Assembly: GCA_024280455.1 (NCBI GenBank)
Contig: JAJRQC010000023.1
Span: 1-64,000, forward strand
Origin: Deltaproteobacteria bacterium
GTDB lineage: Bacteria > Desulfobacterota > Desulfobulbia > Desulfobulbales > Desulfobulbaceae
Direction of reading: 5' to 3'
Length of the DNA: 64,000 nucleotides
The notes under the pieces are model-generated. The model was given only the letters and a program-made list of their open reading frames with translations, made no database searches and had not been told where the DNA came from. This document shows, piece after piece, positions 57,889-63,442 of the stretch. The translations under genes and the position numbers were made by a program. Every line of letters begins with the position of its first letter. The stretch's first letter is position 1.

Positions 57889-58127
57889 TTCAATATGCCG
57901 TCTCTCTCCTCTCGTTGCAAGATATATTGGATTATTGTATAAAGTACGGGTTGTTGTCTGCCACGATGTGGTTGTCCGGAACTGTAGTTGCTGTCGCCGT
58001 GAGTTGTTTTGAGACCCTCACAAGATGAACAGTTTTCCAGGGGGGGAGACGTGGATATCTTTGCAGACTGTTGAATGCTGGTACGTTCAAACGGAAAAAT
58101 ACGATCATACAGACAAGGTGTTGCCCC

Positions 58128-59879
58128 ATGGATAAAAAAATCATCACAATGAAAGACTGCTTTAAGCATTATACCTATGATCAGGATAAGGCCTGTACGC
58201 CGGAAGAGACCGTGGAACGTTTTAATGCACGCCTTAAGGAGCAGAAACTTGATGTCTTGAAAGAGGTAAAGCGCATCGACAACGGCCGGCTGGATATTCC
58301 TGTATATTTCAGCGTCTGCGGCAAGGATGCCCTGGAAACCATCGGCAATAAAAAACAGATGGGTAAGGGCTCGACCCCGGAGCAGTCCAGGGCCTCGGCC
58401 TGTATGGAGCTGGCCGAGCGCTTCAGCTTTTTTGCCTTCATGAAGAATCCCGATAACTTCATCCATGATACGTATGCCGGGGTCAAGGCTGCGGGATATC
58501 CGGTCCTGCCCCTGGAAAAATGGCTGGCCTCAGTCCATGATGAGAACACCAGCGAGGAGACCCTGGAGAAGTTGATAGAGGATCTTCCCATCCAGTGGGT
58601 GTGGGCCAATAATCTCACCCGCAACGAAGAGACCCTGATGCCTTTTTCCTGGTTTTATGCCATTAACGAGTTTAACGGACCTTCCGCCGGCAACACCTAC
58701 GAAGAGGCGGTGAGTCAGGGCGTGGCTGAGATTGTTGAACGTCATGTCTGTGCCGTAGTCAGCTATGAAGAAAAGAAGACACCAAGCATTGATCCGGCTT
58801 CGGTCAAAGATCCGGTTGCCCGTGAACTTATCGAAAAGTTCACCAGCAACGGAATTGAGGTCTATCTTAATGATTTTTCCCTGGATACGGGCATTCCCAC
58901 CGTGGCAGCGCTTTGTATCGATCCTGCCACCTTTCCTGATGAAAGCGAGATTGTCTATACCGCCGGGACCACCCCTAACCCTGAAAAAGCCCTGATCCGA
59001 GCCCTTACCGAGGTGGCCCAGCTGGCCGGTGATTTTAATTCCGCTTCCAATTATGTAGCCAGCGGTCTGCCCAAACCTCTGTCCCTGAATGAGGTCCCCT
59101 ATATTACCAATCCCGGCATGACTGTTGCCATTGATGAGCTTCCGGATTTAACCGATGATAATATCAAGGTGGAAAATGAGAGATGTCTTGCCGCCTTGAA
59201 ACGGCTTGATCTTGATGTCTTTGTGGTTGATGTGGCGCACCCGACGCTTAAGATTCCCGCCATCTACACTATTGTCCCGGGCTGTCATTTCAGGGAACGA
59301 TCCCGAATCAGTAATGTCGGGCTCTTTGCAGCCAAGCTGGTCAGTGAACGTATTAAAGATCCCGAGTCCTGTGTTCAGCAGCTCCGGCAGATGCAGAAGA
59401 TTCTGCCGGATGCCTATTACCTGGAATTTTACCTGGGCAGAAATCTCATCAACCTGGGGTTGCTTGATGAGGCCCTGGTTCATCTGGAACGAGCATTAAC
59501 CTTGAATCCGGAGGAGGAAGATATCCCCTATATTTATTCGTACCTGGGCGATACCCTCAAGAATCTTGGCCGATATGAAGAGGCCATTGCGGCCATTGAA
59601 AAGGGACGTAAGCTTGATGATGAACGACCTGATTTTCACAATATTCTCGGCGTCTGTTATTTCAAACTTGAGCGCCATGAAGAGGCCATTGAACGGTTTC
59701 ACCGTGCTGTTTACCTCCACCCCTCATCCGCTATTGATTATGCCAACCTTGGGGTGAATTACCGTAAAGTCGGCAACAATGAGGAGGCTGTAAAGTTTCT
59801 GGCCCTGGCCCTCTCCCTTGACTCGGGTATTGATTTTGCCGCAACGCAGCTTGCTGAACTGCAGGACGAGGCACGGTAA
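58128..59879 (+). CDS. YcaO-domain protein with C-terminal TPR repeats
   Basis: A 583-aa cytoplasmic protein. Residues about 1-420 form a YcaO domain: the ATP-binding stretches SRASACMELAERFSFFAF, AVSQGVAEIVERHVCAV and NPEKALIRALTEVAQLAGDF are recognisable. The rest is TPR repeats (YYLEFYLGRNLINLGLLDEALVHLERAL, YSYLGDTLKNLGRYEEAIAAIEKG, HNILGVCYFKLERHEEAIERFHRAV, YANLGVNYRKVGNNEEAVKFL) in place of the usual Pro-rich YcaO tail. YcaO enzymes activate amide carbonyls with ATP, making azolines, amidines or thioamides. No precursor peptide or TfuA/E1 gene is near. ATG 58128 has AAGGTG 8 nt upstream. It faces two rhodanese genes across a shared terminator. Confidence 0.88.
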   Translation: MDKKIITMKDCFKHYTYDQDKACTPEETVERFNARLKEQKLDVLKEVKRIDNGRLDIPVYFSVCGKDALETIGNKKQMGKGSTPEQSRASACMELAERFSFFAFMKNPDNFIHDTYAGVKAAGYPVLPLEKWLASVHDENTSEETLEKLIEDLPIQWVWANNLTRNEETLMPFSWFYAINEFNGPSAGNTYEEAVSQGVAEIVERHVCAVVSYEEKKTPSIDPASVKDPVARELIEKFTSNGIEVYLNDFSLDTGIPTVAALCIDPATFPDESEIVYTAGTTPNPEKALIRALTEVAQLAGDFNSASNYVASGLPKPLSLNEVPYITNPGMTVAIDELPDLTDDNIKVENERCLAALKRLDLDVFVVDVAHPTLKIPAIYTIVPGCHFRERSRISNVGLFAAKLVSERIKDPESCVQQLRQMQKILPDAYYLEFYLGRNLINLGLLDEALVHLERALTLNPEEEDIPYIYSYLGDTLKNLGRYEEAIAAIEKGRKLDDERPDFHNILGVCYFKLERHEEAIERFHRAVYLHPSSAIDYANLGVNYRKVGNNEEAVKFLALALSLDSGIDFAATQLAELQDEAR

Positions 59880-59908
59880 GTTTAATCAGGGAGCCCTTCT
59901 TTAAGGAC

Positions 59909-59947
59909 AAAAAAAAAAGAGACGGGAATTCCCGTCTCTTTTTTTTT
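59909..59947. terminator. Perfect bidirectional rho-independent terminator
   Basis: Ten A, then GAGACGGGAATTCCCGTCTC, then nine T: a perfect palindrome with U-runs for both directions. It ends the YcaO gene and the minus-strand rhodanese operon. Confidence 0.95.
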
Positions 59948-59993
59948 GTGGAAAAATGCTCAGCCAACAGGCTGTTTCAGATTATTTTTATTT

Positions 59994-60935
59994 TTATTCC
60001 CATCCCCACCTGTTGACGACCATGGGTACATCGTCTGCAGCTGAAGCCTCAAGAATGGAGCCGTCAAAAATCTTCACGTTCTTATAGCCTAGCAGGTCGT
60101 GCAGAACAAAATAGCCCATGGCTGCGGCAAGACCGTGGTTACTGTAGGTGATGACTTCAACATTTTTGTCGGCCGGCAGGTGAATACCCTTGGCCATCTG
60201 CTCCAGTTCTTTTGTCTTCCTGAAATAAGAGGGAGCAAAATCAACACCGGCAATGGTCATGAACCCCTGTGGCCAGAGCAGTGCTCCGGGGATATGGCCG
60301 GCCCGGCTGATCTCACTGTTTTTCTCATGACCGAAATACTGATCAGCGAGCCTGTTGTCGACAAAGTAGACCTTGGATGAACCGATCTTTTTCTTAACGT
60401 CGGCAAGGGTTGCCACCTTGCTTGCTACCATTTTGCCGGTGAAGTCACCGCCAAGGGGAGCGACAGCTTTTGTTGAAACTGGTTTTTCCGTCTGCTCCCA
60501 CGCGGCCATTCCTCCATCGAGGATGGCAACCTTGTCAAACCCGAGGGTATGTAAGGTCCACAGGGCGCGGGCACTTTTTGCCGTGTCCTTTGGGGTGATT
60601 CCTTCATCGTAAACAACAACAAAGGAATCGTTGCTGACCCCGTACCCCTTGATCATGTCGACCAGATCCGCTTCCGGGGGCATCATGAAACCGACAAATT
60701 CCCGGTTCATGCTCATCCAGGGGCCAAAGGCTTTGACAGCTCCGGGAACATGTCCTTTTTCGTAGTGGATAAACTCACTGACATCCAATATGACCAGCTT
60801 GCTCTTATTCAGGTTTTTGGCAAGCCAGTCAACACTCACCAGCGAACTCTGCGCTGCCAGAGTCAGGCCCGGCAAACAGAACATAAACAGGAGAACGCCA
60901 AGTAAAGACGTTTTTAATCTGCACACTCTATTCAT
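59994..60935 (-). CDS. Periplasmic tandem-rhodanese protein lacking the catalytic Cys
   Basis: A 313-aa exported protein with a signal peptide (about residues 1-27) and two rhodanese domains: SVDWLAKNLNKSKLVILDVSEF and VYFVDNRLADQYFGHEKNSE. The second-domain active loop reads YSNHGLAAA; Ser265 stands where the sulfur-carrying Cys is expected, and its codon AGT is one base from TGT. It probably cannot carry a persulfide and may act as a binding protein or partner to the Cys-containing paralogue encoded just upstream. The two share order and many motifs (FVLHDLLGYKNV versus FVLHDILGYKKV), so they are old duplicates. Confidence 0.88.
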   Translation of the reverse strand: MNRVCRLKTSLLGVLLFMFCLPGLTLAAQSSLVSVDWLAKNLNKSKLVILDVSEFIHYEKGHVPGAVKAFGPWMSMNREFVGFMMPPEADLVDMIKGYGVSNDSFVVVYDEGITPKDTAKSARALWTLHTLGFDKVAILDGGMAAWEQTEKPVSTKAVAPLGGDFTGKMVASKVATLADVKKKIGSSKVYFVDNRLADQYFGHEKNSEISRAGHIPGALLWPQGFMTIAGVDFAPSYFRKTKELEQMAKGIHLPADKNVEVITYSNHGLAAAMGYFVLHDLLGYKNVKIFDGSILEASAADDVPMVVNRWGWE

Positions 60936-61067: not shown

Positions 61068-62027
61068 CTACTTTGCACTCCGCCCCCAGGTAAAGGTGTT
61101 CAAGACCAGATCATCATCGGCGCCATATTCAAGCATTGAGGCATCATAGACACTGACCTTTTTGTAGCCGAGAATGTCATGGAGAACAAAGTAATCCATG
61201 CCGGCGTACTGGCCGGTGTTGCAGTACACAATGATTTCCCTGTTCTTGTCACTGGGCAGCCCTACCCCTTTGACCATCTCTGCAAGCTGCTTACTGTCCC
61301 TGATTGTTGCCGGAGCACGGTTGGCACCGGCATTATTCAGGAACGGGGCAGGCAGGCTGATGGAGCCGGGGATATGACCGAATCGTTCAACATCGGCCCG
61401 TTTGTCTGCACCAAAGTGTTGGTTACTGCCTCGGGCATCGACAAGAATGGCGTCCTTTTTCTTGACCTTGTCAAGTACCTGCTTCAAGGTCGCAACCTTG
61501 GAGGAATCGAGCTTGGCGACAAAGGTACCAGCTTTGCTTTCAGGGACCTTGTTGTCAATGATCCGGCCCTCAAAGGTCCACTTGGTAAAACCGCCGTTGA
61601 GGTAGGAAACATTGGTATGTCCGATTGCTTCCAGGATCCATACCGTTGCACAACCCTTGGTGGCATCACCAATGGAGTTTCCGTGATCGTAAATGACCAC
61701 ATGTGATGATGGATTGACCCCGATAGCCTGCAGCATCTGGGTCAAATCTTCAGGTTTGGGCATCAACTGGCATTCTCTTTCTTGATCGAATGGTTCCCAG
61801 CCGACATAGGGAATGTTGTAAGACCCTGGAATATGGCCCACTCCGTAGTTGGTCGTCGTCCTGACATCTATAACAACAAGATCCTTGGCCTCCAGGTTTT
61901 TTTCGAGCCACTGGGTGGTCACCAGAGCTGTGGTTCCTGCCGTAACCGTGGTCGCCGGAACGGACATACATCCCGCCGCTACCAGCAACACTATGAATAT
62001 CAAAGAATGTAACAGCTTATTTTTCAT
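61068..62027 (-). CDS. Rhodanese-like sulfurtransferase lipoprotein
   Basis: A 319-aa exported protein with a lipoprotein signal (IVLLVAAGC, lipid-bearing Cys20) and two rhodanese domains. The second keeps the catalytic loop YCNTGQYA with Cys269, so it can form a persulfide. The first (VIDVRTTTNYGVGHIPGSYN) has no Cys loop, as usual for tandem rhodaneses. Adjacent to a multihaem cytochrome; a similar combination occurs in the ext-type selenite/tellurite reduction clusters described in Geobacter-like bacteria, but I cannot confirm orthology from sequence alone. The substrate may be thiosulfate, polysulfide or another chalcogen. Confidence 0.88.
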   Translation of the reverse strand: MKNKLLHSLIFIVLLVAAGCMSVPATTVTAGTTALVTTQWLEKNLEAKDLVVIDVRTTTNYGVGHIPGSYNIPYVGWEPFDQERECQLMPKPEDLTQMLQAIGVNPSSHVVIYDHGNSIGDATKGCATVWILEAIGHTNVSYLNGGFTKWTFEGRIIDNKVPESKAGTFVAKLDSSKVATLKQVLDKVKKKDAILVDARGSNQHFGADKRADVERFGHIPGSISLPAPFLNNAGANRAPATIRDSKQLAEMVKGVGLPSDKNREIIVYCNTGQYAGMDYFVLHDILGYKKVSVYDASMLEYGADDDLVLNTFTWGRSAK

Positions 62028-62083: not shown

Positions 62084-63442
62084 TTACTTTTTGATTTCGC
62101 CAGGGATTTCCTTCACGATAATCTTCTGGTTTGCAGTTGGTTCATCCTTGGCCAGGTCCGCTTCGGTGAGGAAGAGTTCCTTGTGGCCGTGACAAGCATT
62201 ACAGGAGCTGTTCTGTTTGGTTCGACGCTGGATGCTGTGTACTGAAGCAGAGTTCCATGTCGGCAGAGCGTCATAGTTGGCGACCAGATCTTCAGGTCCC
62301 GGCGCACCCTTGAGAACCGCCTGGAAATACCGAAATGATGCCAGAGAGTCCTTTTTCATGGGCGTATGACGCACCAGGTTATACTTATAGGGGTTTTCCG
62401 GAGAGCGATCAATATTGGTTCCGATTTTGAACGTATAGAGCGGTTCGGATGGGAAAATGACCTTGATCTGACCGGGTTTCTTGATGTCGAGCGATACATG
62501 ACAGTTCGAACAGTTAAAATAGGTGTTGGAATGGCAGACTGCACAGGCGAGCGTTCCGTCCGGATGTGCGTTGTGCATGGCTATTTTCGACTTGCCGGAT
62601 TTTGCCGCATCAGGATGACACGATTCGCAGCGCACGGTTTTGGTGGCGTAATAGCGTTTCACACCTTCGGGCTGCGTGTTGTGCAGGTGATCGGCTGAAT
62701 GGCAGTCGGTACAGACCATCTGGCCCTTTTCGTAATGGACATCTGCAGTGGCGCCGAGTTTGCCCATATACTCGCCGGCAAAACGGGAGCCATGGCAGGC
62801 GTAGCAGGTTTTATCCATGGGTGGTGTTTTCTGGAACCGATGTCGATCAAGAAGACCGCCTTTGGCAACCGCCGGCCAGGCAACATGGCAGGAACCGCAA
62901 CTGGCGTGACAGTCTGCACAGTCAAGGGCCCAAGCCTCAGGCAACAAGGTGTCTTCCATCTTGTGCGGCGAGGTGATGGTTCCGACGATATCCAGAATGC
63001 CGGTCAATTTATAATGCATGGCATCTTTATAGGTGGAGGTAATGTCTTCATGACATTCACGGCATACGCCGCCACCGCCCTCTTCAGAGGGATCCTTTAC
63101 CATTTCTTTATGGGCTTCATCTTTATCGTCGACATTCTGTCCTTTATGACAGCTTATACAACCGATTTCTCCGTGCACGGACTCAACAAAGTCTTTGGCA
63201 ACACCAAAAGTATCCCGACCCCTCACCTGAGGGGCTGAAACGCCTCAGCCTGCAATGGCGGCACCGCCACTGGATGATGCCGCGCCATAGCTGTCCATCT
63301 CCTCAAGATCGGTATGGCAGTTTATACAGGAACTGCTTGGATCCGTATCCTGGGCGGCAAGGCTGCCGACCGGGCCAAAGGCAAAGGCCAGGCCCAGACA
63401 GGTAGCTGCAATGAAGATACCCTGTGTCTTTTTTCTTTTCAT
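62084..63442 (-). CDS. Eleven-haem c-type cytochrome with an in-frame TGA (candidate selenoprotein)
   Basis: Read as one frame from ATG 63442 (AAGGAGGATCAACTAG upstream), this gives 452 residues. A signal peptide (about 1-30) is followed by 11 CXXCH motifs: CINCH, CISCH, CRECH, CADCH, CGSCH, CYACH, CTDCH, CESCH, CAVCH, CSNCH and CNACH. The frame is broken only by TGA at 63247-63245 (codon 66), between haems 1 and 2, in GGAAIAG-stop-GVSAPQVRG. Without read-through, the first 65 residues would end there and a GTG start (63226) would give a 380-aa protein with no signal peptide, which could not be exported or haem-loaded. Selenocysteine insertion, or a nonsense mutation, are the alternatives. 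Function is probably periplasmic electron transfer, coupled with the rhodaneses. Confidence 0.78.
63207..63247 (-). promoter_or_regulatory. Candidate bacterial SECIS element
   Basis: On the minus strand the TGA is followed by 16 nt, then the loop AGGU. The upper stem is CCCCUC/GAGGGG. Below it UUUCAG can pair with UCGGGA with one mismatch, so the stem runs nearly back to the TGA. Known bacterial SECIS hairpins place a G(G)U-containing loop about 16-18 nt after the UGA. A bulged U like that of E. coli fdhF is not evident. Confidence 0.5.

Follow-up and report, generated by a model that had tools for sequence, protein, structure and literature searches.

The 64,000-nucleotide stretch of DNA analysed here (the window) carries a gene for an undecahaem cytochrome at 62084..63442 on the minus strand, with 452 codons including one in-frame UGA, followed by TAA. 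Homologues have the same length and layout, which supports this extent of the gene. When the TGA is read as a sense codon the translation contains 11 CXXCH motifs, in which Pfam recognises generic multihaem domains only. Residues 1 to about 30, ending in SLAAQ, form a probable export signal peptide (63353..63442, minus strand), as judged by inspection of the translation without a signal-peptide program. Haem-binding motif 1, CINCH at residues 39-43 (63314..63328, minus strand), lies upstream of the UGA and is invariant across 48 aligned members of the family. Motifs 2 to 11 span residues 95-418 (62189..63160, minus strand), with haem 2 at residues 95-99. The UGA is codon 66 (63245..63247, minus strand), set in the motif AG-Sec-G between haems 1 and 2, and is conserved as TGA in homologues. 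The earlier note on this DNA described one continuous frame in which a signal peptide and haem 1 are separated by a single TGA from haems 2-11, and all of these elements are present. Attachment of 11 haems and export of the protein are inferred. Because gene calling with table 11 stops at TGA, we infer that genes like this one are likely annotated as two fragments.

Directly downstream of the cytochrome gene is a gene for a probable lipoprotein (LVAAGC) with two rhodanese domains (61068..62027, minus strand; PF00581, 5.3e-34) and an active-site-type cysteine in YCNTGQY. It is followed by a gene for a second, exported tandem-rhodanese protein (59994..60935, minus strand; PF00581, 1.3e-27), in which serine replaces the catalytic-type cysteine (YSNHGLA). 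The second rhodanese may therefore lack catalytic activity and serve as a binding-type partner. The gene at 58071-59879 on the plus strand converges with the rhodanese genes; it encodes a YcaO domain joined to TPR repeats, and a terminator-like hairpin near 59908-59953 separates it from them. Weak Rfam matches to sRNAs near 59871-60008 are below gathering scores and overlap this hairpin. Just past the window, genes divergent from the cytochrome gene (L118 1496-3404; contig C26:64495-66403) encode a histidine kinase, whose membrane domain is PilS-like, and a response regulator carrying a Fis-type HTH. This pair is a possible redox regulator of the cytochrome operon; related kinases are found near several other family members.

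The earlier note had also placed a hairpin with the loop AGGU right after the TGA, at a distance of 16 nt from TGA to loop, and this is exactly what the sequence contains. With its lower stem the hairpin extends over 63212..63241 (minus strand). The upper stem pairs GCCCCUC (63235-63229) with GAGGGGU (63224-63218), enclosing the apical loop at 63228-63225. As a 36-mer the hairpin folds with a free energy of -16 kcal/mol (z -2.2). Published constraints for bacterial SECIS elements (bSECIS) are an apical loop of 3-9 nt, an upper stem of 4-16 bp, a G within loop positions 1-2, a distance of 16-37 nt from the UGA and an MFE of at most -7.5 kcal/mol (PMC13188914). The window hairpin is within every one of these limits, with a 4-nt loop, 7 bp, G at loop position 2, 16 nt and -16 kcal/mol. 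An Rfam search returned no SECIS match.

The window's own clade shows almost no variation in the hairpin, which makes covariation there uninformative; the case for it rests on the sister clade. An 8-bp stem was scored in 45 distinct homologues that lie outside the clade of the window. Of the stem cells, 94.2% were paired, and 41 were double-changed compared with 8.2 +/- 2.3 in shuffles. The covariation score was 0.468, against 0.168 for shuffled sequences and 0.06-0.12 for slid structures. Stem variants include GTGGCTCC..GGAGCCAC, TGCCTCC..GGAGGCA and TGGAGCC..GGCTCCG, and a further variant, GTAACTCC..GGAGTTAC, encloses a GUU loop. The covariation extends across phyla. Constraint on synonymous sites was also evident. 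When synonymous codons were randomised with the protein unchanged, the stem kept on average 4.8 pairs instead of 7.2. The leucine codon in the loop is TTG in 46/46 sequences (14.4% elsewhere in the genes), and the proline codon preceding it is CCG in 44/44 (36.6% elsewhere). In both clades tested, the minimum of synonymous variation along the gene falls in the hairpin windows. The SECIS assignment thus draws on folding, covariation, synonymous constraint and loss of the hairpin in relatives without selenocysteine (Sec).

A set of 57 genomes comprising the window's own genome and relatives was searched, yielding close homologues with exactly one TGA as well as three TGA-free members. Scanning 84,980 species genomes with a profile left 79 related loci. 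At 74 of these a single in-frame TGA occupies the same Gly-Sec-Gly type motif, and in two more (L102 and L106) the TGA lies directly ahead of the matched stretch, so that codon 66 is TGA in 76/79 loci. The remaining three have Cys (L073 and L090, in the otherwise identical motif GEGCGG) or Arg (L103). TAA or TAG was not found at codon 66 in any of the 79 loci. The loci carry the labels Desulfobacterota, Bacillota, Actinomycetota, Calditrichota, Spirochaetes and Nitrospirae. The locus labelled Nitrospirae comes from a single contig of a metagenome-assembled genome (MAG) and is close to Desulfobulbaceae forms, and other MAG labels may be wrong too. Among the carriers is a cultured organism, Malonomonas rubra DSM 5091 (locus L081). 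Within Desulfobacterota a member is present in 54 of 394 genomes (about 14% of those sampled), and 55 of the 60 matches listed from these genomes have exactly one TGA. Among 15 further, mostly more divergent members that were read there is a third clade, which has the motif GUAG(A/P)PP with the TGA at the same place. Two genomes (G439 and G470) each contain a TGA-free paralogue (L128 and L129, respectively), with GAIGPAG replacing the Gly-Sec-Ala motif, alongside a match that has a single TGA. After L128 comes another multihaem protein, and after L129 a single rhodanese domain. Another member, L133, has extra N-terminal haems and 17 CXXCH motifs in total.

In a tree of the family the Cys and Arg forms are nested within the Sec forms, and at least two changes between Sec and non-Sec are required. 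The stem decays in relatives without TGA: of the eight stem pairs, 8/8 can still form in L073, 6/8 in L090, 5/8 in L103 and 4/8 in each of the TGA-free L014, L015 and L020. A non-Cys residue at codon 66 of homologues had been named in advance as grounds for refutation. A few diverged relatives do have Tyr or Arg at the Sec site, but the hairpin is lost there too, and we therefore read them as non-Sec forms; the prediction of TGA or Cys at this position was otherwise borne out. Comparison with the nearest relative, L029, gave dN/dS values of 0.046 before the TGA and 0.044 after it, indicating strong purifying selection on both sides.

The genome from which the window comes encodes the machinery for selenocysteine insertion, as the earlier note's reading would require. 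SelA (635 bits), SelB (372 bits), SelD (357 bits) and tRNA-Sec (72 bits) were all found above cut-off, the SelD gene having an internal TGA of its own. SelB was present in 21/21 genomes of the order checked and in 8/10 genomes checked further afield, the exceptions being the hosts of the Cys-type L073 and of L050. The latter locus bears a TGA, and its genome gave no SelB match over threshold; this genome is likely mis-binned or incomplete. L050 (contig JAJYGJ010000119.1) is labelled Nitrospirae, and its Sec cytochrome groups with Desulfobulbaceae forms. In a separate observation on the window's own genome (G000; contigs C104 and C59), an internal TGA occurs in each of two SelD genes and is absent from a third SelD-like frame.

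Taken with the TGA and Cys homologues, the hairpin, its covariation and the machinery strongly support the proposal that UGA is read as Sec. There is no direct protein evidence, but on the genomic data we regard decoding of codon 66 as Sec as nearly certain. What is inserted at a UGA cannot be shown from sequence alone, and readthrough as some other residue, such as Trp, or by near-cognate suppression, has to be considered. We judge it very improbable: the substitute found in the identical motif is Cys and not Trp (L073 and L090), a bSECIS-type hairpin follows the codon and decays when the TGA is lost, and the Sec machinery is present. Even less room is left for two genes with a conserved boundary, a short haem-1 protein ending at the TGA and a downstream 10-haem protein. 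Downstream start codons are possible, for example GTG at 63226, and a similar alternative, a conserved operon, was put forward for the cytochrome ExtKL in 2007 (PMC1914089). Yet in each of the 74 loci that were read through the TGA the frame continues across it without a shift, relatives have the sense codons Cys, Arg or Tyr at the site, and the covarying hairpin would be left without a role. Moreover, haem c is attached after export, and the downstream part has no signal peptide. That the TGA is a true stop, arising from a recent nonsense mutation, a pseudogene or an assembly error in one genome, is the default reading under table 11, and a fresh nonsense mutation was the earlier note's main alternative, but this reading has next to nothing left to recommend it: full-length frames are conserved, with the low dN/dS after the TGA given above, and the occurrence of the TGA in 76/79 loci from several phyla, in dozens of independent assemblies, excludes sequencing error and a fresh nonsense mutation.

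The neighbourhoods of the 79 loci were compared for genes that accompany the cytochrome. Judged by frame length, a rhodanese is fused to the cytochrome in 23/79 loci, and one is encoded in the fetched flank of 43 further loci. Inspection of the remaining loci revealed more rhodanese cases, including single-domain types, while several others are at contig ends. Two consecutive rhodanese genes, as in the window, also occur in most close relatives. The order of the fusion is reversed in L132, whose two rhodanese domains precede the cytochrome instead of following it. No rhodanese was found near the Arg form, L103. Rhodanese is the only constant neighbour of the Sec cytochrome: neighbourhood clustering yielded no second constant partner, only regulators and lineage-specific genes, and no other sulfur-metabolism gene is constantly nearby across the loci. 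From this genomic association a functional link between cytochrome and rhodanese appears highly probable, and we hold Sec decoding and the rhodanese partnership, taken jointly, with great confidence.

Selenocysteine is seldom met in multihaem cytochromes, and its presence there is poorly understood. The earlier note considered it unusual, which needs qualification. Precedents exist in ExtKL, in octahaem tetrathionate reductase (OTR) and in the GSU2204 family, and a catalogue of 119 selenoprotein families (May 2026) lists ExtKL, the GSU2204-family barrel protein and a form of OTR (PMC13188914); the architectures of all three differ from that of the window protein. Nothing in the catalogue fits the window family (PMC13188914). 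The family is also absent from NCBIfam 20.0, where no model reached its cut-off among the members with scores listed, and none of the NCBIfam models matched by members is one of the selenoprotein cytochrome models. We found no account of an undecahaem Sec cytochrome in open-licence PMC papers, the only literature covered, and an earlier mention elsewhere is possible.

A parallel in organisation is ExtKL (GSU2937-GSU2936; MccSep; NF040886), proposed as a Sec cytochrome in 2007 (PMC1914089). Like the window family it is an exported multihaem c-type cytochrome with one Sec and a rhodanese-like protein, ExtH, encoded in its cluster, which has been implicated in selenite and tellurite reduction (PMC5877670). 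However, ExtKL has five haems with the Sec far after them, in GHxIPDGUPTPNR, whereas the window protein has 11 haems with the Sec between the first two. No SECIS was recognised in ExtKL in 2007 (PMC1914089), in contrast to the textbook element of the window family. Apart from 23 columns around one haem there is no sequence relation between the two. Identity with ExtKL was rejected, as none of 18 members matched NF040886 at E <= 1 and the window's own genome had no match at 1e-20. Structures of MccSep are available in the PDB (9wt8-9wtc, including a U325A mutant), which from their length, name and residue number we take to be of the ExtKL type.

OTR (TIGR04315; PDB 1sp3) resembles the window family in profile and structure, and some of its members have U or C between their own haems 1 and 2. 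It has eight haems compared with 11, and its Sec or Cys, in NNF-U/C, falls between what correspond to window haems 3 and 4. The two Sec sites are therefore not homologous. Membership of TIGR04315 was rejected: the window protein is unmatched, and the best of 18 members reached E 5.4e-6, the cut-off being 375 bits. The GSU2204 family (NF041027) is likewise a catalogued Sec protein with CXXCH motifs (PMC13188914), but is described as an outer-membrane barrel of the MtrB/PioB type, unlike the window protein; this identity too was rejected, as NF041027 gave no hit at E <= 1 in any of the 18 members tested. A link between Sec and rhodanese domains is also known from TsoB (NF045694) and rhodanese form 3 (NF041203) (PMC13188914). 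There the Sec is inside the rhodanese-type protein; in the window, by contrast, it belongs to the cytochrome, and the rhodanese retains Cys. Being neither ExtKL nor TIGR04315, and with nothing fitting in the catalogue, the window family is counted as a Sec cytochrome family with its own Sec site, not previously catalogued. It brings one more architecture to these cytochromes: the Sec site differs, the SECIS is a textbook case with covariation, and a rhodanese accompanies the cytochrome almost constantly. The family points to a selenium-dependent redox protein that is widespread in Desulfobacterota and other phyla yet uncatalogued.

The relationship to OTR was examined by profile and structure comparison. 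Using hhalign, haems 3-9 of the window family align with haems 1-7 of the OTR family (probability 97.6, E 4.6e-12, 185 columns), although the CXXCH motifs themselves may contribute to this score. The predicted structure of the window cytochrome has a mean pLDDT of 77.9. Foldseek found nothing in the PDB at E <= 0.001 for this model, and the fold relation therefore rests on the profiles and on a second look with VIA-align 2, whose best match was 1sp3 (Z 8.7, only moderate; rmsd 4.8 over 272 residues). By the criterion of multi-haem profile similarity, the family is a member of the wider OTR-like multihaem superfamily. In the model the Sec is located in a Gly-rich loop (residues 59-71) of low model confidence. 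Nine non-motif histidines are conserved for 11 haems, from which we infer that the ligation of two haems may be open or of an unusual kind. Two residues that closely follow haem 6, Arg220 and Glu224, are missing from no clade except the TGA-free one (L014/L015/L020); this is a weak hint, from sequence comparison, that they might share a site with the Sec.

We conclude that this is a genuine bacterial selenoprotein gene, in which the hairpin after the UGA directs Sec insertion by SelA, SelB, SelD and tRNA-Sec. The single Sec of the exported 11-haem product sits in a flexible loop rich in Gly (G-Sec-G/A), and the cytochrome works with the periplasmic rhodanese that is fused to it or encoded beside it. 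Sequence evidence supports both the decoding and the partnership well, whereas the mechanism is inferred. The rhodanese might hand sulfane sulfur, from thiosulfate, polysulfide or a similar donor, or else a reduced selenium species, to the Sec selenolate. The bound Se-S would then be reduced or oxidised by electrons passing through the haem chain, the core of which resembles OTR. Sulfur or selenium compounds are the leading substrates on account of the OTR relation and of the parallel pairing of ExtH with ExtKL (PMC5877670). Whether sulfur chemistry is the true substrate class is evenly balanced in our estimation; the substrate is inferred from genome context only. The full proposal, an uncatalogued family of selenium-dependent sulfane-sulfur oxidoreductases, widespread in anaerobes of several phyla, in which a persulfide on the rhodanese Cys would pass to a mobile Sec arm and on to an OTR-like haem core, is tentative and falls somewhat short of even chances. 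If the sulfur role is true, the periplasm would have a new way of converting sulfur or selenium.

A reductase of selenite, tellurite or a metal, as for the ExtH-ExtKL cluster, is the strongest competitor to a sulfane-sulfur enzyme. ExtKL is itself a Sec cytochrome clustered with a rhodanese-like protein, in a cluster implicated in both reductions (PMC5877670), and the window rhodaneses are weakly similar to the ExtH model. That match is far below cut-off, however, the window cytochrome is not ExtKL, and profile and fold indicate tetrathionate reductase instead, so we consider this alternative unlikely while keeping it in play. The Sec could also be an axial haem ligand or a structural residue rather than a reactive nucleophile. 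The shortage of conserved histidines leaves room for unusual ligands, but relatives with Tyr or Arg at the Sec site retain all CXXCH motifs, and a mobile reactive arm fits better with a Sec placed in a loop that is rich in Gly and modelled with low confidence. We think a ligand or structural role rather improbable, and a reactive Sec remains our preferred reading.

Many OTRs of the phylum (TIGR04315 matches) carry an internal TGA. In L114 and L117 the TGA is at NNF-U, a site at which others have NNF-C, and these OTRs make up another lineage of Sec cytochromes whose counterparts have Cys.
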